Assembly (NCBI GenBank): GCA_031002005.1
Contig: CM061920.1
Location: 104,653,447 to 104,717,446, forward strand
From: Vandiemenella viatica
Lineage: Eukaryota > Arthropoda > Insecta > Orthoptera > Morabidae
Direction of reading: 5' to 3'
Length of the DNA stretch: 64,000 nucleotides
The position numbers were made by a program, and so were the translations under genes. The notes beneath the pieces are model-generated. The model worked only from the letters and a program-made list of their open reading frames with translations. It had not been told where the DNA came from and made no database searches. Within the stretch, counting starts at the first letter, position 1. Each line of letters starts with the position of its first letter. Positions 17,450-57,970 of the stretch are shown one piece after another.

Positions 17450-20400
17450 TTACTCTTGAGTTTCTTCCTCTCCTGTCCTTCTTTCTGCTTCTGATGCCGG
17501 TTGCTCGCGGCGTCCCCTACGCTCTGCCTGTTTCAATTCAACAAATCTCGCCTTCTCGCGCTGCGACGCTAGATTAGCAGCTTCATCCAGCAAGTGCCAG
17601 AGCTCGGTATCACGCAGTATATCGTATATTCTTCTGTTCTGAAGATATGCTCTTGATTCTTCAGTTTGTTTGCACTCCCAAACCACGTGCTCGGGAGTAC
17701 CACAGTCGCACCTGTTTGTTTCTTTGAGGCCTCTCTGTTCTAAGAAACTGTTGTATGGACCATGGCCAGATATGTAGTGTATGAGCCCTGGAGATGGTTG
17801 TAGGTGAGTCATGTTCATTCTCTCTTTCACGCAAGGAAGCATGTCGAAGGTCCTTCTGCCCGTGTTGCTGTTAGTCCATGTTTGCTGCCATTCATCCATC
17901 AGCGCATCCCAAATATCTTTTTTGGTTTCAACAGGCCTTCCAATTATTTCAGCAGCTTGGTCATACCTTCCTTTTTTAATCCAGTATAGCGCTCCTCGCT
18001 TCCTTACTTCCAGGTCCAGGGGCCAGATACCGAGTATAACCGTTAGGGCATCTGTGGCCGTTGTTCTGTAGGCCCCAGTTAGTCGGAGCAGAATTCCTCG
18101 CTGCGTACGGCGAAGCAGCTCCTTTGGTTTGACCTTTCTTAGGTGCTTGGCCCACGTGCTTGCAGCGTATCCAGTAACGGAGGTCAGTATTGCATCGTGA
18201 TATCTTCTTATGACGAGCGGAGGCAGATTAAACCGTCGTTCGCCAATGCTTATCAATTTATGCATTACCAGTGCTGCTCTTCCACATACTTCCTCCATGT
18301 GAGACGCAAATTTCAGTTGTTCCTCCAGGTTTACACCAAGGTAGCGGACTACTGCTTTTCTCTTTATTGTTTTTCCCTGGATCCTAATTACCGGATTTCG
18401 TTTGAGTGTTCCTTTAGGAGCATGTAGGTCGTCTTTTGTGGGGCTAGGTTTAACTTAACTGCTGCACACCACTTATTCAGGCAATCCAATACTGCTTTGC
18501 ATTTTGTTTCGAGTTCCTGCCTGGTGTCCGCGTCTATCAGAAGTGCGAGATCATCGGCGAATGCCACCACACCCAGCAGTTCTGACATTGTTTCAATATT
18601 TCCATGACCGGTTCCAAACCAATGTCCCAGAAATTGGTCCACACACTGATCCCTGCGGGCAACCTTTCGTCAGTCTTTTCTCTATGTACTTGTTGGGGCA
18701 CCGCAATTTGGCATATCTATTTCTACAATAATCTCTAAAAACTGGTATACAGGTTTTTTTGGACAGTTGATGTTTCTTAAGCGTTCGAACAGCGCGGGCC
18801 ACCAGAGATTGTCGAATGCGCCGGCGATATCCACAAATACTCCCACCACATAATTTTTGGAAGAGTTTTGAGCTATTTCCATTAAGCGGTTGATGGCGTC
18901 CTCTGTCGACTTGCCTGCTCTGAACCCATACTGATTTGGGTTCATCCCATGTTTTAATCTATGTTCCTTTAGTTTCTTGCAGAGTATCTTTTCTTGTACT
19001 TTCCGTAGAACATTGAGTAAGCAGATTGGACGATAGGATTTTGGAAGTTGTGGGTCTTTGCCTCCACCTTTCGCTATGATAATCACGTCACTCGTTTTCC
19101 ATGCATTTGGTATTTTTCCCTTTACCAGGCATTCGTTAAAAGTTATTTTAAGGTTGGAACCAGTTGGATGACCAGCTCCTGGAGGACCTCTGCTGGTATC
19201 CCATCAGGTCCAGGTGCTTTTCTTTTTGGAAGGGAAAATATTGCCTCTAATATCTCTTCATCTGATATGACGCATTTTTGATGTTCACTCTCGTAGGGAT
19301 CCCACATTTTTTGACGCAGTTCACTTTGCCGATCTGTCTCGTTTTTTGTATTGTCATCTGGAAGTAGCACGGCAAGTAACTCCCGTGCAGTTTCCATCCA
19401 GTTGGTGGTCATAGATCCATCCAGTTTTCTTACTGTAGACAAGGTTGTAGGTGGCCTAATTTTGCCAGCGGCAATCTTGTAGGGGATGCCCCATGGGCCT
19501 GATCTCATATTTTGTCTGACGAAGGCTTCCCAGCTTTTTTGTTTGTCTTCAGCAACAGATCCTTGAACTCTTGCTTTTTGTTCCTATATCTATCTAGAAG
19601 AGTCTGTCTCTCTTCTGTAATGAGGCAACGTTGATATGCTTTTCTTGCCTTCCTCATTGAGATTCGTAGTTTCTGCAATCTTTCTGTCCATGGTTGTCTT
19701 TTACTTCCCGTTGTTTTCTTTAGTGGAATTGCAGTTCTCATTGCGTCCTGGATTGCTCGAATTGTTTCTTCCGCAGCCTTGTCCACATCAAAATCTTTAT
19801 CTTCGACTTGGGGGGGAATAAAGCAACTCCTCAACCTTGGCCAGTTGGCTTTGCTGATGTCATATAGCCGTTGAATATTGGTACAGGCGCCTTCGCGCGC
19901 ACCGTCCCGCAGTCTTCCAGTTCGAACATAATTAGATTGTGATCACTGGTGGTTTGGTTCTCAATCACCTTCCACCCGCTTACTAGGTTTCCTGCTCTTC
20001 GATTTGCTAAAGTTATATCTATGTTCGATTTGGCACCTGCTCGGTCACTGAACGTGTATGGATTGTTTTGGCTCGTTTTTGACATACAGCTGTAATTCTC
20101 CAATCAGCTCGAGTAACTTTTCTCCTCGTGCGTCTGTACGACCGCTGTGCCAGAGTGCAGATTTGGCATTTGCATCGGCAACTATCACCGTAGGGCTGTC
20201 GCCTATGGCTGTACATATTTCCCTAATCTTGCAAAGATAGGGATCAATATCGTCTCTGTATTGGAAGTACATGTTAACGAGGACTACGTTTCCCCATTGC
20301 GTACCTAACTCCACACACACCGTATGTTCATCGCAGAATTGTGTTATTTTTGTGACTGTGATTTGCTTATTGAAGACTATGATGGCACTCATTGGTTTTT

Positions 20401-20587
20401 TCCCTGTCGAGATTATCTGAGACGTCACTGGCATGTGTGAGATTTTCCCTTCCCTGGAATGGGGCTCTTGAAGACAGAGGATATCTATTTGCATTTCCTC
20501 AGCCAGTTTACTCACTTCATGCAAAACCAGACTGGTTCTCCTGCAGTTTAACTGTGCGATCTTAATTCTCTCTGCACCCCTACTCAT
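17450..20587 (-). pseudogene. R1-clade LINE ORF2: endonuclease / reverse transcriptase, broken
   Basis: ORF2 nicks target DNA and reverse-transcribes the element RNA there. I take the ATG at 20587, before SRGAERIKIAQLNCRR, as start because it overlaps the ORF1 stop. The endonuclease spans about 20587-19900: KIAQLNCRR, LCLQEPHSREG, ADANAKSALWHSG and, in a shifted frame, SNIDITLAN and TTSDHNLIMFEL. The RT spans about 19300-18400: KRKAPGPDGIPAEVLQE, SYRPICLLNVLRKVQEKIL, YGFRAGKSTEDAINRLME, FVDIAGAFDNLWWP, TKGCPQGSVCGP and AFADDLALLIDA. The catalytic FADD is intact. A last long open piece (17450-18298, 282 codons) carries CDCGTPEHVVWEC and a charged Glu/Arg-rich end. The frame changes between blocks show it is dead, though most blocks read well, so decay is moderate. 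Confidence 0.85.
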
Positions 20588-21604
20588 GGATGCCGAGTAT
20601 GGATATTGCACTGTGGCCACGGCTGTCTCGAGTCAAGCATTATTCTTCCATGAGTCAGCACAAAATGACGATAAATTTGATCTGGATCAAAGATTTCGTT
20701 CCGTCTGTCAAATACTTGCTTGACTATAGTGAGTAACTGGGCTGAATTAGTAGGTATATTGTTTATCTTAAGTTGAATACGATCAATTGCCTCTGGTTGC
20801 GGAAATGTGATGTTTTTGCCATTTGGATGTGCTATTCTGGTTAGGTGGCGTAACGCCATAGTGAGATTTTGTGTTTCCTCTAGTCTAGCAAGCTGCAGAT
20901 TGTTTTCAAACTTTTGGTAGATATGGTCTGGAGCTATAGCAGCGTGTCTTGGTTTTTCGTTCGCTCGGTTTTTGGAGGCGCCACTAATTTTGCAGTAGTT
21001 GGATGTCATTGGAACTGGTTCCTACCCACCCAAGTCCAGCTCGTTTTGGTGGAGGTCTAGGAGAAATATCACAGATGGTAGAAGTAATCTCTGAGTGTTG
21101 GAGGATAGATTCATCTGTCTGCGTGCTTACGCTGTTTGCTGTTTCCTTCCCTTCTTGCAATATTTTCACCCTGTATCTTGCAGCCCTCTCTGCGTTCCTC
21201 CTCTTCTCGATGGCGTGTTTCTTGTTTTATTCCTCTTTCCTTTCCCTACTGTTTCTTCTATTAGGTTGATAATGATACTCAATAATTGATCTTTGTATGG
21301 TTTATCCATCCTCTTGGAGTTCCTTCTACTGTCCATAATCTGTTCTGTTTATCAATCTTTGAAGAAACAGTTGGTATGTCGGACAATCTTTGCCAGATTT
21401 GTTGCACGATTTTCCCCGTTTCCTGCATGGGATACAAACAGCTGACTGTAAGCTCGGTATGCACGATCTCGGTATCATGATTATCTCGTGATTGAGGTCA
21501 ACGAGATTAATGGAAGATGGCTTGAGGGGGTAGAAGGCAATAATGGCTGCCAAACTTAGATGGCATCTGGGCATTAATTTGATACTATCAGCTAGTGTAA
21601 TCAA
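20584..21604 (-). pseudogene. R1-clade LINE ORF1 (gag-like RNA-binding protein), broken
   Basis: ORF1 proteins of R1-clade LINEs bind element RNA in cytoplasmic particles. Three frames cover it. The piece at 21326-21604 has CIPCRKRGKSC followed by KDCPTY, resembling the last Cys-rich knuckle of gag-type ORF1 proteins in which CP.Y recurs. The piece at 20984-21169 has a Pro-rich end (SPRPPPKRAG). The piece at 20584-21009 is mostly helical and charged. The order of pieces is inferred from position, and frame changes lie between them. The stop codon TGA (20586-20584) overlaps the start of ORF2. A start codon cannot be fixed because the 5' part is decayed. Confidence 0.6.
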
Positions 21605-21640
21605 AATTCTGCCATAATCAGATGAAGTCTCCTAATACTC

Positions 21641-22067
21641 TTTCTAAATCGAATATATCACTGTAGGGCATTCGTAGTATCACGTATTTTAAGAATGTCA
21701 GTAAGTTCACTTAATACCGAATTAATAAGACTGGTTCAATTTTCCCAGGACTTTATTTAAATTATTACCGCTCTTTTGTAACAACTCAATCCACACGTAC
21801 ATCCTTTTGCTGTTTTGCATTACGCGTTAAATGTTTAATCAAAAGCTGGGAGAAAATATTACTATATGTTTCCCATTAAAATAATTATGCAGAAGAAGAA
21901 CAAATGCGTTAAATTGTCAATTGTAACGTCAAGCTTACTTCTGTGGTCGAAATTATCTTTGGTTATTGTGGTGGAAAGAAAATTAATTCAGGAAGATTTA
22001 ATATTATTAACATTTTGTTTAAGCATACGCTTAATATACTTCATAATACCTTACACAGTGTCGGATG
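21641..22067. other. AT-rich spacer
   Basis: No recognised coding or repeat content between the R1-clade element and the 219-bp tandem duplication. Confidence 0.5.
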
Positions 22068-22502
22068 ATTCGTGTAAACAGATAAAAAATTCATATGTAT
22101 GAATATTTTGTGTTAATTGTCATTCTTTAACTGTAATGTCAAATTAATTTTCATTATGAAATATCTTGTATGTAGCCACTGGTGATCCGTAGTTCATACT
22201 TCGTGCTTTGGAGACAGCAATGCCATCCATTACCGAGGCACACAACTCTACAAATTACCGTCATTATTATTATTATATGTAACAGCATTCGTGTAAACAG
22301 ATAAAAAATTCATATGTATGAATATTTTGTGTTAATTGTCATTCTTTAACTGTAATGTCAAATTAATTTTCATTATGAAATATCTTGTATGTAGCCACTG
22401 GTGATCCGTAGTTCATACTTCGTGCTTTGGAGACAGCAATGCCATCCATTACCGAGGCACACAACTCTACAAATTACCGTCATTATTATTATATGTAACA
22501 GC
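22068..22502. repeat. Recent tandem duplication, two units of 219/216 bp
   Basis: Unit 1 (22068-22286) and unit 2 (22287-22502) read the same by eye except for one ATT triplet in the ATT run near the end of the unit. Such identity amid decayed surroundings points to a recent duplication or to copy homogenisation. The unit has no coding frame. Confidence 0.95.
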
Positions 22503-22614
22503 ATCCCAGAGATAACATACTCATATATTACAGATGGAAAGATCTATAATTGAAAAAATAATAATTTTGGGGTGTTTATAGATTATTTAATTGTTTTGTT
22601 GGTAAACAGGTAAA

Positions 22615-22809
22615 TCAGGAAAAGATGACCATGAACACAAGCTGGCACTCAATGTCAGGCACAAGGGTGTGGGAAGATTCTCTTTTTATGTAAGGATGTC
22701 CGGGATTGGAATGAGTTACCAAGAGAAATGATGAATAATTTACCGAAAAACGTTGAAAGAATTTAAAGATAAAATTTGTAGAGGGCAAATGTAGGTGGTT
22801 GCTGGATAG
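22615..22809 (+). mobile_element. 3' end of a CR1/Jockey-like LINE RT, target of the foldback insertion
   Basis: Translated on plus with one frameshift it reads GKDDHEHKLALNVRHKGVGR, then FSFYVR, RDWNELPREMMNNLP and ERIKDK. This matches the block order (HDHKLAL..R..VGRFYL..SDWNKLPNEIMSNL) at the C-terminal end of the minus-strand LINE at about 34.0-34.2 kb, so it is a 5'-truncated relative of that element. The coding similarity ends just before the foldback element, whose target duplication starts at 22810. Confidence 0.65.
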
Positions 22810-22815
22810 GGGGAA
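22810..22815. repeat. Left 6-bp target-site duplication of foldback element (GGGGAA)
   Basis: GGGGAA directly precedes the first base of the left inverted arm and is repeated exactly at 30149-30154 after the last base of the right arm. Confidence 0.85.
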
Positions 22816-23784
22816 AGTAGTGTCTGAAGGGGGCTGTGAGCCAACTTTTTTCCCCATGTATTTCTTATGGACAAGGCTGTGAGCCCACTTTTTCCCTTAT
22901 GGACGGGGGAGTGAGCCCAGGACCACCCACGTCGCAACGGACGCAGGTGTGCGCGCTCTGCCACGTGCCACTTCTTAACCTGACTTAGAGGTCATAAATG
23001 GGAATAATATGTAAATGAGGCCACGTGCCACGCAGGTGTGAGCTCAAGTCGCCGTGCACGTGTACTGTGGACGCAGGTGTGCGCCTCTGCCACGTGCCAC
23101 GTTGGTACGGGTCATAATTCGTCTAAATGGCTTTATTATTTATTTTTTCTACGCGGTCAGGGTACTAAACCTCAATTACATGGTCTTAGAATATTAATGC
23201 ATTTGATTACGCTCGAAATGCGGTATAATATTCACTTTTTATTTTTATTCTGGGGCCCTGGGCTCTATATTTTATAATAAGTATTACATATTTTAATTTG
23301 TACTAGTGGTGTGAGGTATCGATTAATATCTACATTTTCTCACTATTATATCGCCGTTTATTTCATTTAATTCCGAGTACTGGTTCCAAAGATACGAATT
23401 CTTAGAGTTAACAGAGATTTTTTATTAAATCTTCGTTCCTACATCTCATTAGGAGGCGGGAACGCGAGGGTAGAACCAGTCGGCCCACAACACAAAAAAA
23501 AGCCGGCATGTGTCTCACCCCCGCGGCAGGTGGCGGAGAGAAAAAAAACAACTTCTAAGAAACTCGTTTCCTTACACCAGACGTTTTAAAAATCGCCTTG
23601 TCAGTCTAATTCATATGCACTACGATCTGGAGTGTAATGTCCGCTGTCCCCCCCCCCCCCCCGATCACAGTCCACATTAACATGTAATTCAAACAGCTAC
23701 CAATGGGACAATCATAATTTGTTTTTCGACGAATAAGGTAGAAGTATTTTTTAATACATATCTCTTTATGCGTCTGTCACCGTA

Positions 23785-24135
23785 TCAATGATAGCGTGCC
23801 TTGAACATCGTGTATGAAGAGCATTTATTCATTCGTACTGAAAATACTCTTATGATAAAAAGTACTGTACAATTCAGCATTCTTCTGCAGCACCACATTT
23901 CCAATGCTTCAATTTTCCTTCTTTCCGGTATTCCTAAAGTCCATGTTTCGCTACCATAAAGTGCTGTGCTCCACACATAGAGTATTAAAAAGTCTTTTCT
24001 AATTCCCGGATCAATATTGGAAACTAAAAGATTTCTCTTTTTCATGAAGGCTGTTTTTGCTAGTGCTATTCTGCTTTTAACCTCATTCTTGCTTCGGCCA
24101 TCGGTTGTAATTTTTCTTCCTACCGTAAGTAGCAA
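23785..24135 (-). mobile_element. RTE-type LINE fragment nested in left arm
   Basis: The minus frame (116 codons) reads MLLTVGRKITTDGRSKNEVK, RIALAKTAFMKKRNLL, YVWSTALYGSETWTL and EMWCCRRML. This is the region after the RT core that is typical of RTE-clade LINEs in animals. No RT catalytic box or endonuclease is present, so it is a short fragment. The right arm carries the same piece in inverted order (about 28861-29207). Confidence 0.8.
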
Positions 24136-24239
24136 AATTCACTTACTTCTCAAATTGTATTCGATCCTATTTTTTTTTTAATTTATATATTTATATTTAA
24201 TCTACTAGTATGGGTATCATTTCTGCTACATTTCGTCGA

Positions 24240-24425
24240 ACGTGGTGTTGAACCGGCTAACGTTCTGTCCTCACATTCGAGAGGACAGCGGTTTGAATCC
24301 CTCTCCGGGCATCCAGAATTCGGTTTTCCATGGTTTCCTCAAATCACTCCAGGCGAATGCAGGGATGCTTCCTTCAAAAGGCCAGGGATAGACTACAACC
24401 TTTCCTCACGCTGTTTTTAACTGAT
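24240..24425 (+). mobile_element. tRNA-derived SINE nested in left arm
   Basis: Head: GTGGTGTTGAACCGGCTAAC (A-box side), CTCACATTCGAGAGGAC and GCGGTTTGAATCCCTCTCC (B box), then GGGCATCC. Body: GGTTTTCCATGG, CTCCAGGCGAATGCAGGGATG and CTTCCTTCAAAAGGCCAGGG. Same family as 7246-7490. The mirror copy is at about 28605-28765. Because both arms have it, this SINE inserted before the arms became duplicates or were last homogenised. Confidence 0.85.
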
Positions 24426-24554
24426 GCTTGTCTTTGCGTGTCACTGGTTTGATTTTATCTTATGTATATATTATTATCTTGGACTTGTTACTTCTTTCCT
24501 CACCAATCATTTCCAAAGCTCATTCACTTCTTACTTTGTCTCTGCACTTAATTT

Positions 24555-24656
24555 TTCAGCATTCTTCTGCAGCACCACATTTCAAATGCTTCAATTTTCC
24601 TTCTTTCCGGTATTCCTAAAGTCCATGTTTCGCTACCATAAAGTGCTGTGCTCCAC
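24555..24656 (-). repeat. 102-bp internal duplicate of the RTE fragment
   Basis: This segment repeats 23873-23974 in direct orientation, 682 bases away, with one difference seen (TTCAAATGC against TTCCAATGC). It encodes ALYGSETWTL..EMWCCRRML on minus. The same duplication exists in the right arm (about 28337-28440 against about 29018-29122), so it predates the duplication of the arms. The SINE lies between the two copies. Confidence 0.85.
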
Positions 24657-25215
24657 GAATATCGATTTAAGGTATCAACGAAACGGCTGATTTCAGTTAT
24701 ACATCTCACAAATTGTACATTAGCATAGGCTATTACGTTTTATACCGGTAAATACTATATTACTAAGAAAATATGATCACACGATCAGATACAGGAGTTA
24801 AATGAATTCGGTATTGGGGACTTAGTGCATGCCTATTGTTTCTGAGTGGGGTGTCTGTATTATACGAGGTGGGAGGCACCAGCTACTGCAACTCATCATT
24901 GAAGGGAAATGTGTCACTCCCCACGTATTTCCTTAAAAAAGGTGTGAAAAAAATGATTAAAATACCTTAAGCCACAAAAATTCCATAAATATAGTAGAAG
25001 TTAGAAAAAATTTATTTCATTTCACTTCACTAAAAAGTCACGATTTACATCTGCCTGCATTACACAGCAAAGTGGCATCTTTATGAAGTGTATTCATCAC
25101 TGAAATGGACTAAAGAAAAGCGTGATATCTGTGTAAATTGCGTGTTCGGCTGATAAGGCAGTCTCCGGGAAGAAGAAGAAGAAGAATAAAAAGAATGGTA
25201 ACTGGACAGATGTGG

Positions 25216-25253
25216 TAGGTCAGTATTAGACGCGAGCGCGTAATACTGACCTA
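25216..25253. repeat. Perfect 13-bp hairpin at inner edge of left arm
   Basis: TAGGTCAGTATTA at 25216-25228 pairs exactly with TAATACTGACCTA at 25241-25253 around the 12-base GC-rich loop GACGCGAGCGCG. It sits within a few bases of where the two arms stop matching. Confidence 0.9.
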
Positions 25254-26624
25254 ACACAATGTAATAAGTTGGGTATGCTTAACAAATCTTACCTACAATA
25301 ACCTCAAATACTGCTAGGGTGTGATGGTTGATTAACTAAAACTGGGGTTAAACTCTAGTGTACCCACACTCATTACATAAAGTTGTAGCTTCACACGCGC
25401 CTCCGTAACATGCTGGGCTTGCATAGCATGATACACCTGCAATAACCTCAACTACTGCTAGCTTACACTAACTTATCCTACCTTCATTAGATGAAATATA
25501 CGTTTCACAAGCGATATTGAGTAAATCGTGTGCATAACTGTAACACTCCCATCGAGATTTAGTTAGTCATACTCAATGTGCAAAGCTACAGAAAACTGAG
25601 TTATTGTTAAGATGTAGTGTACTAACCTAACTTACCCCAAATTGTCACACATCCTATATTCACCGGAGTTTAATTAAATTTACTGATGATAGCAGTTTTA
25701 GCTATGTCTTGTATGTTAATGTGCCTGATACGTTCTGTTACGCCTTGGATCGTATACATTCAGTGCTATGATGCTCATATTTGTTGTTTCAATCCCATGC
25801 GCACACTATCATGATGGAAAGGTGGTATGTGTGGAAAATATGCATCACATAGATTTCCTAACATGATAGAATTGGTACAGCACTTTTTATTATAAGCCTA
25901 TTTTCAGTATAAATGAATAAATGCGATTTTAAAACGCTTGGCCCAAGGGATCGTGTTTTATAAGGGCCCAAGCCACTTCGGTATGGTAAAGAACCTTAGG
26001 AATTCCAAGTCTCAACGATGTCATCAGAACACTACTGTGATAACTAGTGCACGTGACTATAGCCCTACCCCAAATTATTTCCGTGGTCTAATGCAATATA
26101 ACAACGCACAGTTCACCTACCTAACCAAACCTAAGGACTTTTTAATGGAAGGTGGGTAAAAATATTCTGTCTTAAGATTTTTCTATATTTGATGAAACCT
26201 TTTTTAACTCTGTTGAGGACGTGATTTGGTCTATGTGTGTTGATGTTACGTTGCTGTGTGCGTGTGTAAGGTTATTTGCGGAGAGGTTTCTGCGCGTGTT
26301 GCAGGATTCATCCTGATAATTGATTTTGGAAATATCTCTTCGAAGGATGCCGGTGCACTCTTCAAAAAATTGAAAAGTGATACATTAGAATCATGTTAAA
26401 AAGTGTGCAGATAATATACGATATGAGCTCCGAGCGGATTCAGAAGTATGCTATGTTCTGATTCTGTACTTGAAATTTAATGGCCGTAGAAACACACGAA
26501 ATGCCTCTCAGAAATCTTGGTGGTTTTTAACGGTATTGTCGGTCCTTCGTGCATGTAACGATATGTGACTTGCATTCAGTATTTTCGTTGTACATTCGTT
26601 GTAATATTTTTATGTATCTTGGTG

Positions 26625-27014
26625 TACTATGATGCTCTATGTGTCTATGCCTTGTAGTGTGTACAGCATACTTGCATAATTTAAAAAATTGCGACAGTGA
26701 TTTGTTTCAGAAGGTTTATAAATTTATCACGAAGAACTCCAAGTTTTTGCAGACATTCAAATCGCAAGACTCGAGCATCTAGCTGGTGCCTCCCACCTCG
26801 CATAATGTGTCCTAGATATTGTGTTTTCCTATACTTTATCGTGGGGAGCAGTTCTTTTTGTACTATTATGCTCTATGTGTCTATGCCTTGTAGTGTGTAC
26901 AGCATACTTGCATACTTTAAGAAATTGCGACGGTGATTTGCCTCAGAAAGTTTATAAATTTATCACGAAGAACTCCACGTTTTGCAGAAATTCAAATCGC
27001 AAGACTCAAGCATC
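26625..27014. repeat. Two direct copies of a 154-bp segment in the spacer
   Basis: Copy 1 (26625-26779) and copy 2 (26861-27014) share CTCTATGTGTCTATGCCTTG, GTGTGTACAGCATACTTGCA, TTTATAAATTTATCACGAAG and TTCAAATCGCAAGACTC, with a period of 236 and scattered substitutions. Neither encodes a recognisable peptide. Confidence 0.88.
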
Positions 27015-28604
27015 CGTGCGCTTACTCTGCCAGCACCGTACGAACAACTCGGTAATGTTTCACAGCCTTGGCACATCAATGTCCCAAAGATGTTTCCCTG
27101 TCAATGTGTGGAGAATTTTAATGTAGTAACTTTCATTAATGAGGTGCGTTACACTTTTTTTTATCTAGAGTTTGCATTCCTATCGACAGTTGAGGATTAT
27201 TGTAAGGGAGGTAATTTATTTTCGTCTTATGCAAGTTCTCTAATAAAGTGTTTTGCATTAATTTTGTGAAACTTGTATTTTGATACAGCCATTCCACGTA
27301 GATGATAGAGTAAAACTGATTGAGAGCATTATCAGGGCAGCCATCATCTCCCCAATTACGGATTTTGCCACCCTAAATGTCTAAGCTGAACTGTTAGATC
27401 AGACATTTCGCAAGGGAAAACTAAGGATAGTATGCCTGTCTAGCATCACTTTACTTAGTGGAATCATTCACAAGAGACTTCGATACTGAAGACTGAAAAA
27501 AGGCTGAGAAAGTTATTATTTCAACATAAACTGGTTATTTTTTCCTTGAAACAGACTTGGCGATGGCCATGGCTAGGTATGCGGTCTCACAAAAATCATA
27601 TCCACAGCACTTGCGACTTTGGTCAAACAGTGCAATTGGCTGTAACACCAAGCTCAATTGTTAACACAATGCAACAATTTATTAAGCGCTGCTGACCTGA
27701 ACTTACCCTAATATAACGCAAGTTATGACGGCTCGTGTGTCTACTGATGGCTAGGCATTCGATAACATTGAGCTCTGTGATGCACACATCTGTCGAGTTA
27801 TCATTCATTTTCTTCTTCTTCTTCCCGGAGACTGCCTTATCAGCCGAACACGCAATTTACACAGATATCACGCTTTTCTTTAGTCCATTTCAGTGATGAA
27901 TACACTTCATAAAGATGCCACTTTGCTGTGTAATGCAGGCAGATGTAAATCATGACTTTTTAGTGAAGTGAAATGAAATAAATTTTTTCCAACTTCTACT
28001 ATATTTATGGAATTTTTGTGGCTTAAGGTATTTTAATCATTTTTTTCACACCTTTTTAAGGAAATACGTGGGGAGTGACACATTTCCCTTCAATGATGAG
28101 TTGCAGCAGCTGGCGCCTCCCACCTCGTATAATACAGACACCCCACTCAGAAACAATAGGCATGCACTAAGTCCCCAATACCGAATTCATTTAACTCCTG
28201 TATCTGATCGTGTGATCATATTTTCTTAGTAATATAGTATTTACCGGTATAAACTGTAATAGCCTATGCTAATGTACAATTTTTAAGACGTATAACTGAA
28301 ATCAGCCGTTTCGTTGAAACCTTAAATCGATATTCGTGGAGCACAGCACTGTATGGTAGGGAAACAGGGACTTTAGGAATACCGGAAAGAAGGAAAATTG
28401 AAGCATTTGAAATGTGGTGCTGCAGAAGAATGCTGAAAAATTAAGTGCAGAGACAAAGTAAGAAATCAATGAGCTTTGGAAATAATTGGTGAGGAAAGAA
28501 GTAACAAGTCCAAGATAATAATATATACATAAGATAAAATCAAACCAGTGACACGCAAAGACAAGCATCAGTTTAAAACGGCGTGAGGAAAGGTTGTAGT
28601 CTAT

Positions 28605-28765
28605 CCCTGGCCTTTTGAAGGAAGCATCCCTGCATTCGCCTGGAGTGATTTCAGGAAACCATGGAAAACCGAATTCTGGATGCCCGGAGAGGGATTCAAA
28701 CCTCTATCCTCTCGAATGTGAGGACAGAACGTTAGCCGGTTCAACACCACGTTCGACGAAATGTA
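28605..28765 (-). mobile_element. tRNA-derived SINE nested in right arm
   Basis: Mirror of the left-arm SINE. Read on minus it has the B box GAGGTTTGAATCCCTCTCC, GGTTTTCCATGG and CTCCAGGCGAATGCAGGGATG. It differs by a few bases from the left copy (for example TGAAATCACTCC against TCAAATCACTCC). Confidence 0.85.
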
Positions 28766-28860
28766 GCAGAAATGATACCCATACTAGTAGATTAAATATA
28801 TATATATAAATAAAAAAAAAAAAAGGATCGAATACAATTTTAGAAGTAAGTGAATTCTGT

Positions 28861-29207
28861 TACTTACGGTAGGAAGAAAAATTACAACCGATGGCCGAAG
28901 CAAAAATGAGGTTAAAAGCAGAATAGCACTAGCAGAAACAGCCTTCATGAAAAAGAGAAATCTTTTAGTTTCCAATATTGATCTGGGTATTAGAAAAGAC
29001 TTTTTAATACTCTATGTGTGGAGCAAAGCACTTTATGGTAGCGAAACATGGACTTTAGGAATACCGGAAAGAAGGAAAATTGAAGCATATGAAATGTGGT
29101 GCTGCAGAAGAATGCTGAATTGTACAGTACTTTTTATCATAAGAGTATTTTCAGTACGAATGAATAAATGCTCTTCATACACGATGTTCAAGGCACGCTG
29201 TCATTGA
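28861..29207 (+). mobile_element. RTE-type LINE fragment nested in right arm
   Basis: Plus-strand mirror of 23785-24135. It reads KKRNLLVSNIDLGIRKDFL, YVWSKALYGSETWTL and EMWCCRRML. A substitution changes an Ala codon to Thr (LAETAF against LAKTAF nearby also differs), and the first start codon of the left frame is not kept, so neither copy is under evident coding constraint. Confidence 0.8.
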
Positions 29208-30148
29208 TACGGTGACAGACGCATACTTCTACCTTATTCGTCGAAAAACAAATTATGATTGTCCCATTGGTAGCTGTTTGAATTACATGTTAATGTGGAC
29301 TGTGATCGGGGGGGGGGGGGACAGCGGACATTACACTCCAGATCGTAGTGCATATGAATTAGACTGACAAAGCGATTTTTAAAACGTCTGGTGTAAGGAA
29401 ACGGGTTTCTTAGAAGGTGTTTTTTTTTGCTCTCTCCGCCACCTGCCGCGGGGGTGAGACACATGCCGGCTTTTTTTTGTGTTGTGGGCCGACTGGTTCT
29501 ACCCTCGCGTTCCCGCCTCCTAATGAGATGTAGGAACGAAGATTTAATAAAAAAATCTCTGTTAACTCTAAGAATTCGTATCTTTGGAACCAGTACTCGG
29601 AATTAAATGAAATAAACGGCGATATAATAGTGAGAAAATGTAGATATTAATCGATACCTCACACCACTAGTACAAATTAAAATATGTAATATTATTATAA
29701 AATATAGAACCCAGGGCCCCAGAATAAAAATAAAAAGTGAATATTATACTGCATTTCGAGCGTAATCAAATGCATTAATATTCTAAGACCATGTAATTGA
29801 GGTTTAGTACCCTGACCGCGTAGAACAAATAAATAATAAAGCCATTTAGACGAATTATGACCCGTACCAATGTGGCACGTGGCAGAGGCGCACACCTGCG
29901 TCCACAGTACACGTGCACGGCGACTTGAGCGCACACCTGCGTGGCACGTGGCCTTACTTACATATTATTCCCATTTATGACCTCTAAGTCAGGTTAAGAA
30001 GTGGCACGTGGCAGAGCGCGCACACCTGCGTCCGCTGGGTGGTCCTGAGCTCACTCCCCCGTCCATAAGGGAAAAAGTGGGCTCACAGCCCCGTCCATAA
30101 GAAATACATGGGGAAAAAGTGGGCTCACAGCCCCCTTCAGACACTACT

Positions 30149-30154
30149 GGGGAA
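30149..30154. repeat. Right 6-bp target-site duplication of foldback element (GGGGAA)
   Basis: Exact copy of 22810-22815. Removing one copy together with the element would restore GGATAGGGGGAAGATGGGG as the empty site. Confidence 0.85.
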
Positions 30155-30916
30155 GATGGGGGTGTAGGAAAATTTCCACCGGAGCCTTTGCTCCATTGCA
30201 ATTAAATTAAATACGATAAGAATATGCCAGATAAAAACGTAATGTGACGTGGCGGCACCGATCAGAATTGTGCCACACCGCACAACGCTTAAATCGTGTG
30301 GTATTGTTATTAATTTTGGTTCCAAAATACCAATTTGCAGGTAGATGTTAGTGGCACGTAGCACACGAGGTAGTTTTATACACTTTTATTCATAACAATA
30401 TGTTTGCAGAGTTTCACATTGTATACCGCCTTATAAGAGATATTAACCGGATTAAAAAAGTAGGAGGTTCTCAGTTCAATCAGTTTATACATTATTTTTT
30501 CAATTTATGTAATGCGACAACTCAGAAAGTACGATATCGAATTGCATTAATCTTTCCTAGCTGAAAGAGGATACTTTTAAATGGCTCATATTAGTGCAGT
30601 AATTATTTTATAATTTCATTAAAAAATTAAAAAAGTTACGTAATTTAATGTAAGTACACAAATTAATGCGTTGTTGTGGTGTCTATTTGCGGGAATTTTT
30701 TTAGTAGAAATAGGATGCATTTCTGGTGGTCCCATTTAAACTTTATTTTACTTCGTTCGGTACATTTTTTCTAATTACGAAAAAAATCTAATGTATGCAG
30801 GCTGATTACTGTGGAAATATTTGAGATTTCACCTAGAACTTCGTATACAATCAGTCGTCCACATCTATAGTAAGGAATAGAGCTTACTGTAAAATATGTC
30901 TTATTTGTAAGAATTA
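30155..30916. other. Spacer between foldback and mariner-like elements
   Basis: AT-rich with no gene recognised. Its start may continue the non-coding 3' region of the LINE fragment split by the foldback insertion. Confidence 0.45.
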
Positions 30917-30918
30917 TA

Positions 30919-31771
30919 CAGGGCGTTCGCCGGGAAACGCAACCCACTGTTAGCGCTACAAGGAAGAAACTGCTCCCGGCGAGCGAGCGCTCAGTTTCCG
31001 GCATTGTTCGACCGTCGGCCGCGGACTATTTCATAATAATTACGCTTCATAAACTTCATAAACTTGTGTGCTAAGCATTTAAATGTGGCGTAATTCATTA
31101 GCTTACCTTATAAAAGATGCTGGAAGTGTTGACCCTCTTGTGTAATGCACATTTCACATCTTCTGAACATATTTCGAGACACACGCTGCCCTAACTGACT
31201 TAATGATTTTTTGGGTGACTGTTCTAGTCGAAAAGCGATATCGTTAATTTTCTCCTCTGTGAGAATACGGTTGACCGACAGTCTCTTTTTGTTAAAAAAT
31301 GAACCCGTTTCTCTTACTTTTTTAACCAGACGCAGAATTGTTGATTTAGCTGGCAGTAAAGCGCCAGGAAATTCGCTACGAAATTTACTGCGACACTTTT
31401 TAAACGACTTCTTCTTCACATATGTATCGTAGAGAAATATTCTTTGTTGCAAACTGTAACGTACCATAATTATACTCACACTCAAACACGGTACAGATTA
31501 ATAAGAGTATGAAGCCCCAAACCAGCCAAACCGCAAAGAAACGTTTATTCACAACACTGATTAATAAGAGACTGAAGTCACAAACTATCTACAATGCAAA
31601 GAAACCGTTCTTAACAATGTAAGGGTCACTGCAATGCACTGTTGGGGCAGCGGAGGTGTTAAACAGTGCGGTGATTCACGGTGGCGGTTGGCGGAAACTG
31701 CTGGCTCCACTGACCGAGCAAGTACCGACGGCAACAGACTGGGAGGGTAGCGTTTTCCGGCGAACGCCCTG
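30919..31771 (-). mobile_element. Internally deleted mariner-like element, TA target duplication
   Basis: The ends are inverted repeats: CAGGGCGTTCGCCGG from 30919 and its exact complement ending at 31771. Similarity extends to about 26 bases with two mismatches (AAACGC then ACCC shared). TA dinucleotides at 30917-30918 and 31772-31773 form the duplication typical of Tc1/mariner elements. At 853 bp it is shorter than a complete mariner-like element. The minus-strand frame shows why: the catalytic core is missing. Confidence 0.9.
31108..31485 (-). CDS. Core-less mariner-like transposase: HTH domain joined to the last residues
   Basis: The frame of 125 codons is open. Residues about 8-100 (VRYSLQQRIFLYDTYVKKKS, CRSKFRSEFPG, STILRLVKKVRETGSF, ILTEEKINDIAFRLEQSPKK, SLSQLGQ) match the N-terminal helix-turn-helix region (DUF4817 type by recall) of mariner-like transposases common in insects; it binds the element's ends. 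The last 25 residues (RNMFRRCEMCITQ, GQHFQHLL) resemble the extreme C-terminus of the same transposases. The DDE/D catalytic domain between is absent, and the join keeps the frame. The start is probably the second Met (31467), next to the conserved YSLQQR block. Such a product could bind ends without cutting; whether it is expressed is unknown. Confidence 0.75.
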   Translation of the reverse strand: MSVSIIMVRYSLQQRIFLYDTYVKKKSFKKCRSKFRSEFPGALLPAKSTILRLVKKVRETGSFFNKKRLSVNRILTEEKINDIAFRLEQSPKKSLSQLGQRVSRNMFRRCEMCITQEGQHFQHLL

Positions 31772-31773
31772 TA

Positions 31774-32466
31774 TTAATCAAACGGAATTGAACATAAATA
31801 ATAATCAGATAGTAAAATTGAAACTGTTTATTGATTGCAATATTCAGTAAAAATTAATATTTACTTTGTAGTGGTTTTGAATATGGATTTGCGTCAGGTT
31901 CAAGAAGTCATTTTGTTATTATCTTTTATAATTAACTTATACTTTTTGTTCGTTTCAAGAAACTATTTAGAGGAGAGCAGTTTCCAATACATTTTGGATA
32001 TGACATTTGTTTTAGAATTTAAATTAACGTATAACAGAGTGATAGATTTTTTAGATTGCTGCTGCATGCTTTGTGTTTCATTCCTAAATTAATTTGGCCC
32101 AATGACTTGTTGATATCACGCGGGTACATATTAAAAACAAATTTACATTAGCTCTTCATAGGGCTTAATTAAGATGACGCCTTCTTGTAGTGGTCAGAAA
32201 TCATTTGTGCATGAAGTCTTAAAAAATTACAAACATTTATGTGACTACACTTACGAAGTCTAGTAAGTCTACTAAGAATTAATTTCCTCAACACGTTATT
32301 CTGTTATTTAAAGTGCAGAATATCTTAAACAAGTAGTTGGTTTAGCCTCCATTTTGAAGATCATGAAAAGAGAAAAAAAAATTGGTTCTTGGAAATCCCA
32401 TTTTTTATACTTTATCATAAAAATGGTCAACGATTAGAATAAGGCGCAATTAATGCGAAAACAAAA
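31774..32466. other. AT-rich spacer
   Basis: No family recognised. Plus frames of 60-85 codons are hydrophobic and low in complexity. Confidence 0.5.
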
Positions 32467-55370: not shown

Positions 55371-57970
55371 TTGCTGGTCAGGCATCGAATAGTACTAGGA
55401 ACCAAGAGCTGGTTGGCGCCAGAGGTAGAATCTAGCGAAGTATTTGGCCCTCATTTCAATGTTTTTCTGAAAGACAGAGCTGTCTCAATGGTTGGGTGTG
55501 TGTTCGTGGCCGTTAGCAAAACCGTTAATTGCTCTGTCGTAACTGAAACTGAAATTTTTTGAGAGTTATTATGGGTCAAGCTAAAAATTTGTAAACATTT
55601 AAAGTTCATAATCGGGTCATTTTATCGACCTCCGGATTCTGATTTGGCTAACGCGGAATACTTCAGAGAGCGACTTAATGAAATTTATAAAAATTTCAGG
55701 GACATATATTGATCGTGGGTGGTGATTTTAACCTACCGTCGGTTAAGTGGGGCACGTGCACTTTCAGGTTGGACCTAAGAGGTAGGTTAATAACCGAAAC
55801 GTTCATGGAAGTATTTTCAGAAAGATATCTTGAACAGATGGTTGAAGAGTTAACGTGGTTCGACAAAGATTCCTCGTCCATTTCGAATCTTTTTCTTATA
55901 AGCAATCCTGATATTGTAGATACAGTTTGCGTAGAAGACGGTATAAGTGATCACAAGGCGGTTGTGGTAACTTTAAAATCTAGTCTGAATTTGAAGCATC
56001 ACAAAGACAAACTCGTATATTTCTTTGATAATGCAAACGATGTGGGTATGGTTGATCACCTGGTGCAAAATTTTGAAACGTACACGCTCAATACATATGT
56101 TGAGGAACATGGTTTAATTTAAAAGAAATAATATGGACCGGTTTAAATCAATTTGTTCCTAAGAAGCTAATTAAGGTTAGTAAGAACCTTCCGTGGTTCA
56201 ATAAGGAAGTGAAATGTTTGCTCAGGACGCAAAGGCGTTTACATGCCACAGTAAAGAAATCGGGGGACTTGTCTAATCGCACTAAATTAGTCCAGTTGCG
56301 AGTGGAAGTGCGTAAGACAATGCGTGATGCCTTTAAAGACGCCAAGCCAGAAATGTATCCGAAGATCTGATTGCTAATCCAAAAAAGTTCTGATCATATG
56401 TCAGATTAATAAGAGGCTCTCGTAAAGTTATGCCGTCACAGATTAAGGAAAATGGGGAATTATCTGAAACTAACGTAGAGAAAGCAGAAATTTCGAAAAA
56501 ATATATTTAAAAAAGCTTTCACAACAGAAAACTCAGAGGAGATCCCTATATTTGCCAATCGACCAAAAAAATTATGAACGATCTCGTTGTTGATGTTGAG
56601 GGAATAACTAAACTGCTTATGAATCTAAAAACCAATAAGGCTCCCGGACCAGACGGTATTCCTACAAGATTCTACTCAGGGTACGCAACGGAAATTGCAC
56701 CTTATTTGATGAAATTATATACCGCCTCCTTGGATCAAGGAAAAATACCAGCCGAATGGAAGACCGCTATCGGAAGGCCAGTGTTTAAAAATGGGAATGT
56801 TAATTATCCTCAAAATTATAGGCCAATCTCGTTAACCTCAATATTTTCCAGGATTTTAGAAAACATCATCTATTAAAATGTTATGCGGTTTTTGGATGAA
56901 GGTGAGCTTTTAAACCCAAATCAACATGGATTCAGGAAAGACCGATGTTGCAAAACACAATTTGCACTTTTAATTCACGACTTGTGCCATATTATAGATG
57001 GGCAATCCCAGGTTGACCTGGTTCTATTAGATTATAAAATAGGTTTCGACACTATGCCTCACACTAGGTTACTTAGGAAACTTCGTGGTTACGGCATTTC
57101 TAGACAAATATGCAACTGAGTTGCAGACTTTCTGTAGGGCAGAACACAGTTTGTAGTTCTCGACGGTGAGCGTTCATCACTTACCGAGGTGAGGTCCGTG
57201 GTTTCCCAGGGAAGCGTGATAGGACCTTTGTTCTTTCTCATATACATTGATGATTTGTGTGACATAACAAGGGGAAGAAAAGATTATATGCATATGATAC
57301 TATTATTTATCGTGATATCAAAACCCAGGAAGACTGCGCTTTGTTACAAGACGATATTTTGAAAATAATTGTGTGGTGTAAAGGCTGGTAGTTGGAGTTA
57401 AACGCTAAAAAGTGCCAAGTCATGCGTGTAAGTAAAAAGGTGACACCTTTTAGCTCTGAATATACAATTCATGGTACTGTCCTTAGAACGGTAGATTCCG
57501 CTAAATACCTAGGGGTAACAATTCGTATTAATTTGTTGTGGAATGAGCATATTGAGAATGTAATTGGGAAAGCAAATCGTATGCTCCATTTTCTAGGTCG
57601 TGAAACAATGCACTCTGGAAGTTAAATCGATTGCATATAAGTCACTAGTGCGTCCTCACTTAGAATATTGTCTTTCTGTATGGGGTGCCCATCAAAAGTG
57701 GTTAATGGAGGCATTAGAAAAGGTCCAAAGAAGAGACACCCGATTCGTGACAGGTATATATAGTTGGAGGGAAAGCGTAAGTGCAATGTTGAAGGAGTTA
57801 GATCAGGAAGACCTGGAACACTGAAGGCGTTGCTCTCGACAGAAGCTAATTGAAAAATTCACGACTGACATATTTCGGAATGACAGAAAACAAATATTGT
57901 TACCAGCAACAAAAATAAGAGAAATCATGGCCATAACCGATTATTTTCTGTATTCATTTTTTCCACGAGT
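55371..57970 (+). pseudogene. LINE ORF2 (endonuclease and reverse transcriptase), broken
   Basis: The open pieces 55371-55562, 55709-56122, 56574-56876, 56883-57119, 57392-57625 and 57600-57824 lie in changing frames with stops between. The RT catalytic box, normally F/Y-ADD, reads GCA TAT GAT ACT at 57290-57301: the first catalytic Asp is Tyr. This alone would abolish polymerase activity. Endonuclease residues GDFN and SDH are kept. The frame changes before and after the box confirm long decay. Confidence 0.85.

Follow-up and report, generated by a model that had tools for sequence, protein, structure and literature searches.

A stretch of 64,000 nucleotides from the orthopteran insect Vandiemenella viatica (hereafter the window; C7:104653447-104717446 of the 3.72-Gb source genome) contains a 7,333-bp element that, judging from its sequence, is very probably a Polinton/Maverick derivative that has been gutted, is non-autonomous and is built as a palindrome (foldback). 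This reading rests on ends like those of Polintons in the same genome, a 6-bp target site duplication, subterminal sequence in common with gene-bearing copies and the presence of Polinton gene pieces in relatives with similar ends. There is good support for its descent from the Polinton lineage. None of the core genes (PolB, integrase, packaging ATPase and capsid) was found in the window element, pieces of them being present in relatives with related ends, and we therefore file it as a Polinton derivative and not as a Polinton proper. Throughout, C5, C6490, C7, C7730 and C8 are contig labels within the source genome, and L-numbers denote fetched pieces or loci. The outer parts of the element are as follows (window coordinates).

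22810..22815, no strand: target site duplication GGGGAA, left copy (sequence and arm alignment)
22816..30148, no strand: whole element, probable palindromic Polinton/Maverick derivative, 7,333 bp (arms, relatives, Polinton homology, spacer pairs)
22816..22821, plus strand: terminal motif AGTAGT, the (AGT)2 end-motif of vertebrate Mavericks in PMC8097293 (sequence)
22816..25214, plus strand: left arm, the outer portion of the left palindrome half (95.9% to the right arm)
27785..30148, minus strand: right arm, the outer portion of the right palindrome half (alignment to the left arm)
30143..30148, minus strand: terminal motif ACTACT, reading AGTAGT on the minus strand (sequence)
30149..30154, no strand: target site duplication GGGGAA, right copy (sequence and arm alignment)

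The two inverted arms are 95.9% identical over 2,404 alignment columns, with 53 mismatches in about 2,360 aligned bases and 45 gap columns. The element thus has the long terminal inverted repeats of a Polinton/Maverick, and the arms of about 2.4 kb described in a first-pass annotation, made from the letters of the window alone, are borne out. Substitutions comprise 29 transitions and 24 transversions in a second alignment, and mismatches are spread along the full length of the arm. The first 27 nt are identical at the left and right ends (AGTAGTGTCTGAAGGGGGCTGTGAGCC), both strands start with AGTAGTGTC, and the element ends in AGTAGT on the left and ACTACT on the right. For comparison, AGTAGT occurs in the window at a frequency of 2e-4 (0.0002) per position. 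The first-pass annotation had pointed to a Polinton-like 5'-AG start. The agreement goes further, as AGTAGT//ACTACT corresponds letter for letter to 5'-(AGT)2//(ACT)2-3', the commonest end-motif of vertebrate Mavericks, whose intact copies have 6-bp target duplications (PMC8097293). The direct repeat GGGGAA at the boundaries is exact, as annotated, and fixed at 6 bp (not 5 or 7); the adjoining bases differ and no shift is possible. Two random 6-mers of the window match by chance with P ~4e-4 (0.0004).

A 491-bp query from the left end gave at least 103 matches in the source genome (40 of 1,266 candidates scored). Both ends were fetched for seven pairs, one of which (L009) was set aside as a duplicate of the window locus, leaving six independent relatives at other sites. 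Exact 6-bp duplications bound four of these six, a 7-bp duplication bounds one, and in the last the two copies agree at five of six bases. All six start with AGTAGT or AGTAGA.

L012/13: duplication agcttc, exact 6 bp; 16.1 kb; shares its first 15 nt with the window element
L014/15: duplication attatt, exact 6 bp
L016: duplication aatcaa, exact 6 bp; 7,141 bp with arms of about 2.2-2.6 kb, the nearest twin in form
L017/18: duplication tccatt, exact 6 bp
L010/11: duplication ttcactc, 7 bp
L019/20: duplication agreeing at 5/6; 9.2 kb

Eight loci fetched with one end only (L021-L028) all read AGTAGTGT at the edge. They stand outside the duplication counts, and L021 and L022 have one flank in common. 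Also left out of the counts are L009, as the window-locus duplicate, and L057 (integrase with stop 13 kb away).

The 600-bp flanks of the window element and of the six relatives show no mutual match, except that the window element and L010/11 sit in the same host repeat. Around the window element, the invaded repeat lies as follows (flank comparison).

22618..22809, no strand: invaded host repeat, left part
30155..30212, no strand: invaded host repeat, right part

When the flanks of the window element and of L010/11 are each joined across their own insert, the host repeats align unbroken through the target words of both insertions. The empty site predicted in the first-pass annotation thus has a stand-in that fits the prediction, although this second copy of the repeat carries L010/11 itself and is not a true empty allele. 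The target words of the two insertions are 6 bases apart within the repeat. Two different Polinton-type elements in two copies of one host repeat (window 22795-22815 and L010/11) are a possible sign of target preference.

These flanks bear on a first rival explanation, namely that the palindrome reflects faulty assembly or an inverted duplication in the chromosome, the direct repeat being a coincidence. Two loci speak for it. At C8:1.46 Mb (L065/L066, C8:1457300-1472200) mirror symmetry runs about 1 kb past the AGTAGT ends into the flank and there is no 6-bp duplication, and the window locus is itself duplicated about 105 kb upstream. Against this, the two flanks of the window copy show no mirror symmetry, the exact duplication would have to be a chance match at the probability given above, the same pattern recurs with other 6-bp words at other sites, and the host repeat is restored once the flanks are joined. 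Moreover, the arms are about 2% apart in substitutions and so do not derive from one folded-back read. We consider this explanation very improbable.

The duplicate of the window locus deserves a description of its own. L009 (C7:104569800-104578000) matches window 21547-32000, so that the whole locus, element included, is duplicated with the same 6-bp duplication. Identity is 98.4% and 97.8% in the outer flanks and only 94.3-95.9% in the element and near flanks. L009 is either a segmental duplication or an uncollapsed haplotype. About 1.2 kb of the right palindrome half (window 26683-27854) is missing in L009, a second loss within the same element. Beside the element, a 219-bp sequence stands in two tandem copies in the window (22068-22504) and in one copy only in L009. 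A further stretch of about 850 bp (window 30919-31771), which includes an open reading frame (ORF) with a DUF4817 helix-turn-helix (31108-31497), is absent from L009 and is probably a later mobile insertion.

Kinship with gene-bearing Polintons provides the second line of evidence. The protein-primed DNA polymerase B family PF03175 has 91 matches in the source genome (91 of 1,591 candidates scored) and none in 14 control genomes. One full Polinton (C8:34243009-34256342, 13.3 kb) encodes PolB, an rve integrase, an A32-type ATPase and a double-jelly-roll (DJR) capsid domain. Its ends read AGTAGTGCC and, on the other strand, AGTAGGGGG (AGTAGT/CTACT type), and TTACTC (6 bp) flanks it on both sides. 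The end of the window element aligns with the right end of this Polinton in several largely collinear blocks, the best of which scores 49.1 bits (E 3e-9), compared with 26.5 bits for the best of 100 mononucleotide shuffles. In addition, the subterminal region of the window element matches a Polinton-like element (C7730:139.49-139.51 Mb) at one of its ends over 312 bp at 78% (E 1.9e-73); that element has an integrase without stops and the right-end ORF at its other end. A search of the source genome with the integrase of the full C8 Polinton gave at least 237 matches and, by eye among the matches listed, about 113 of about 118 long ones have no internal stop, which suggests recent Polinton activity in this genome.

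Pieces of the main Polinton genes are also present in three of the six relatives, among which the middles of L016, L012/13, L019/20 and L017/18 were read. L016 holds a relic of orf237, the Polinton ORF adjoining the right end (E 1e-28). L012/13 (piece L060) holds relics of orf237 (E 1e-68) and PolB (E 4e-12), together with a nested Gypsy-like element in the analyst's reading from ORFs. L019/20 (piece L059) has most of PolB and the integrase tail, after which the PolB start recurs in inverted orientation. L017/18 (piece L058) has short pieces resembling a PLA2-like ORF. Copies with different middles and gene-bearing Polintons with homologous termini, both proposed as checks in the first-pass annotation, are thus present alongside the copies with exact 6-bp duplications. 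Its suggestion of a non-autonomous Polinton relative is supported accordingly, by copies with their own duplications, by the differing middles and by gene-bearing or relic-bearing elements with the same terminal region. The other name it offered, a new foldback family, fits only if it is taken to mean a new architecture within the Polinton lineage.

The window element itself looks empty, as the first-pass annotation stated for its spacer. Pfam searches of its nine ORFs gave nothing over the curated cut-off (sub-threshold matches only) and no transposase from any other superfamily. When 13 ORF pieces of a Polinton from the same genome were run against the window by tblastn (E 1e-4), none matched. 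A gene-less element with long arms might instead be a foldback from some unrelated superfamily (hAT-, P- or Mutator-like) that makes 6-bp duplications and starts with AGTAGT by coincidence. Long, internally repetitive inverted arms are indeed described for Foldback/Galileo elements (PMC3573991), and the lack of a recognisable Polinton gene would suit this idea. On the other hand, the terminal region is homologous to gene-bearing Polintons, Polinton gene pieces lie inside elements with related ends, and the Pfam result leaves the element with no other transposase. An unrelated foldback is strongly disfavoured and, in our estimate, has a very slim chance of being correct.

The third line of evidence concerns the middle of the element. 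The first-pass annotation described two arms around a separate spacer; the arms stand, whereas the spacer is better seen as belonging to the right half of a longer palindrome, on the inner side of the arm.

25215..27784, plus strand: 'spacer', the inner portion of the right half; its left-half mirror is missing here and kept at other loci (genome search)
25216..25253, no strand: 38-bp imperfect palindrome around GCGC-GA-GCGC (self-inverted match of spacer 2-39; inverted copies meet there elsewhere)

The query 25215-27784 gave at least 121 matches in the source genome (40 of 1,885 candidates scored), of which 67 were tabulated, leaving out rows for query 1639-2570 and short rows. Fifty-four of the 67 form 27 inverted pairs diverging from a common centre, and 13, including the window copy, are unpaired. 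Seven of the 27 pairs overlap by exactly 38 bp, the centre at 25216-25253, and one overlaps by 34 bp. In the remaining 19, one copy or both begin farther from the centre (query 26-759), leaving at most 413 bp in between, so that these places have lost the centre or have a different one. At C5:16.67 Mb, for example, one half starts at query 26 and the other at 759; this loss next to the centre is asymmetric, as in the window copy, but smaller. Long palindromes are stabilised by losses beside the centre. The window copy would then be a palindrome of about 9.8 kb minus about 2.6 kb beside its centre; the half kept whole spans about 25235-30148, from which the size of the undamaged element follows. 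An origin of the spacer as unrelated host DNA was considered and rejected, the spacer being family sequence that is paired around centres at 27 other places. An element at C8:183.17 Mb shares 1,567 of the 2,570 spacer bases and has arms at 98.7-99.6%; set against the 53 mismatches over about 2,360 bases in the window arms, this indicates that the window copy is the older of the two.

The same pairs bear on a third rival, in which two solo Polinton-end elements came to lie in inverse orientation around host DNA and later moved as a composite. The picture of two arms with an unrelated spacer would agree with it, as would the dispersed repeats inside the arms. It is contradicted by the palindromic arrangement of the spacer as family sequence elsewhere, and the inner arm ends have neither AGTAGT nor a copy of GGGGAA. 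We regard such a composite as very unlikely.

Palindromy in this genome extends to elements that carry PolB. By eye, 26 of the 91 PolB matches form 13 inward-facing pairs a few kb apart (e.g. C7:103.09 Mb and C6490:180.03 Mb), and eight of the 13 were fetched. Their outer arms are 94.7-99.1% identical over 2.8-3.9 kb. Exact 6-bp duplications bound three of the eight, namely tatagt (15.1 kb), aataac (14.6 kb) and aatagc (13.8 kb), and these three (13.8-15.1 kb) are about the size of the full Polinton (13.3 kb). The 7.9-kb middles of two other pairs, L049 and L050, are palindromic throughout (98.6% and 98.9%). Each half of L049 has PolB followed by just the terminal portion of the integrase gene; in L050 no part of that gene was found. 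In terms of gene content, the PolB side is doubled in L033/34 with L049 and in L037/38 with L050, and partly in L059. The L050 centre is homologous to that of the window element in collinear stretches, and the GCGC-GA-GCGC apex is common to both. L049 shares the stretch adjoining the centre and not the apex. Across the loci, GCGC-GA-GCGC is present in the window and L050 and partly in L058 and L013, and is absent from the centres of L049 and L016. This centre may act as a functional hairpin. Being seen in gutted and in PolB-bearing palindromes alike, the GC-rich centre may also mark the site at which copying reverses direction.

How such elements could form and move can be outlined from these features. 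Symmetric molecules would form, as a side product to be expected, wherever protein-primed, strand-displacing synthesis doubles back; alternatively, one Polinton end may have been transferred by copying to the opposite terminus, in parallel to the symmetric genomes of adenoviruses. Either product could be replicated from its AGTAGT ends by a Polinton PolB, with jumping-back on the AGT repeat, a step of protein-primed replication that repetition in the end-motif is said to permit (PMC8097293). Copying that starts from two identical ends would suit the AGT repeat. A Polinton integrase acting in trans would then insert the molecule and produce the 6-bp duplication, a mode of mobilisation proposed in the first-pass annotation and suggested by the ends and the duplication length. 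As no gene was found in the element, PolB and integrase would have to come from elsewhere, and the stop-free integrase copies in the source genome are a possible supply. Loss of about 2.6 kb on one side of the centre after integration would have left the arms-plus-spacer look. Integration in symmetric form agrees with the window copy and with the other copies that have duplications and dissimilar flanks.

Several observations weigh against a gutted, palindromic Polinton derivative as the full account. No Polinton gene was found in the window by the Pfam and tblastn searches, and no movement has been observed. The element at C7730:139.49-139.51 Mb, to which the subterminal region is homologous, ends in AGTGTG and has no duplication. 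Five of the eight fetched PolB pairs are without an exact duplication: two have AGTAG ends without one, another two lack AGTAG at their boundary, and the fifth reads N on the outside right. The pairs of L049 and L050 are among these five, which means that central symmetry and target duplication are seen on separate PolB elements. No copy of the small GC-rich centre was found in L049. Among the pieces compared, what the window element has in common with the PolB palindromes in its arms is confined to dispersed LINE/SINE-like pieces (long and short interspersed elements, respectively), the rest of the homology lying around the centre. Finally, the symmetry beyond the AGTAGT ends at C8:1.46 Mb, in a palindrome that has the spacer sequence too, counts against a uniform model of integration as a palindrome, and some palindromes may have been made or extended on the chromosome and not before integration.

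Comparison with known systems helps to place the element. Mavericks have 6-bp duplications and long inverted ends (PMC8969392), and intact vertebrate copies measure 12.7-24.6 kb with inverted ends of 46-1,447 bp (PMC8097293). The window element resembles them in its AGTAGT ends, 6-bp duplication, long inverted ends and subterminal homology to gene-bearing copies of the same genome. It differs in having no genes that we could find, a length of 7.3 kb, arms of 2.4 kb (longer than the vertebrate range) and a palindromic body. Ginger1 and Ginger2 (PMC2836005) are cut-and-paste elements with a Gypsy-like integrase, 4-bp duplications (5-bp in TDD-4/5) and TGTNR ends. The Polinton integrase is of a related type (same source), whereas the AGTAGT ends and 6-bp duplication of the window element set it apart from both. 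Foldback elements (e.g. Drosophila FB, Galileo, Tetris and Mutator-type) are similar in their very long inverted arms, subterminal short repeats and variable middle. Foldback, Galileo and Mutator foldbacks have their own transposases and 7- to 9-bp duplications. In contrast, the present family has 6-bp duplications in most copies, no such transposase in the nine ORFs, and Polinton ends and gene pieces.

Symmetric (defective) adenovirus genomes have one end present twice, and the Ad12 SYREC type has cell DNA inside. They are comparable to the elements described here, which are related to a linear, protein-primed replicon, have host DNA in the body and may likewise have one end twice, in inverse orientation; the PolB palindromes carry the PolB side twice. 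The difference is that the latter are integrated transposon copies, several with target duplications, known from sequence alone. Taken further, this parallel leads to a broader and more tentative idea, to which we give slightly less than even weight. That is, Polintons in this genome may keep generating symmetric genomes, in one class with PolB in both halves and in another that is gutted and has captured host repeats. Both would be copied and inserted as palindromes, at a cost to full Polintons, much like defective-interfering or satellite genomes of an endogenous virus, and would represent an integrated counterpart of the symmetric adenovirus genomes. Our search of open-licence papers for the adenovirus parallel returned nothing usable, and among the open-licence papers searched (titles, abstract starts and term counts) we found no description of gutted, foldback or palindromic Polintons.

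Gene-less relatives of Polintons would escape searches that start from PolB, integrase or capsid; the present family came to light through its ends, its target duplications and the subterminal DNA common to its members. The presence of symmetric copies in integrated form suggests that Polinton replication passes through linear, protein-primed molecules and yields adenovirus-like defective genomes. This bears on the open question of whether Polintons are living viruses, for which the loci reported here supply concrete test sequences.

Further searches found nothing: the left arm had no matches among phages, the outer arm none among plasmids, and the exact end patterns none in the viral contig or genome contig collections searched. 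Rfam and tRNA scans of the window found nothing. The arms contain the following smaller features.

22832..23101, plus strand: subterminal short repeats, GGCTGTGAGCC twice, GGACGCAGGTGTGCGC twice, CTCTGCCACGTGCCAC twice and GCCACGTGCCAC three times
23873..24656, no strand: dispersed host repeats within the arm, mirrored in the right arm (names are the analyst's reading)

Within the latter, a 102-bp piece is present twice (23873-23974 and 24555-24656) around a SINE-like piece (24237-24387). The 102-bp piece is, in the analyst's reading, the C-terminal part of a LINE reverse transcriptase; neither Pfam nor a protein search gave a name to this LINE-like ORF. Elsewhere in the window, 17450-20632 and 55691-56122 are broken non-LTR retrotransposons (lacking long terminal repeats), with an endonuclease domain and RVT_1 at 18682-19203.

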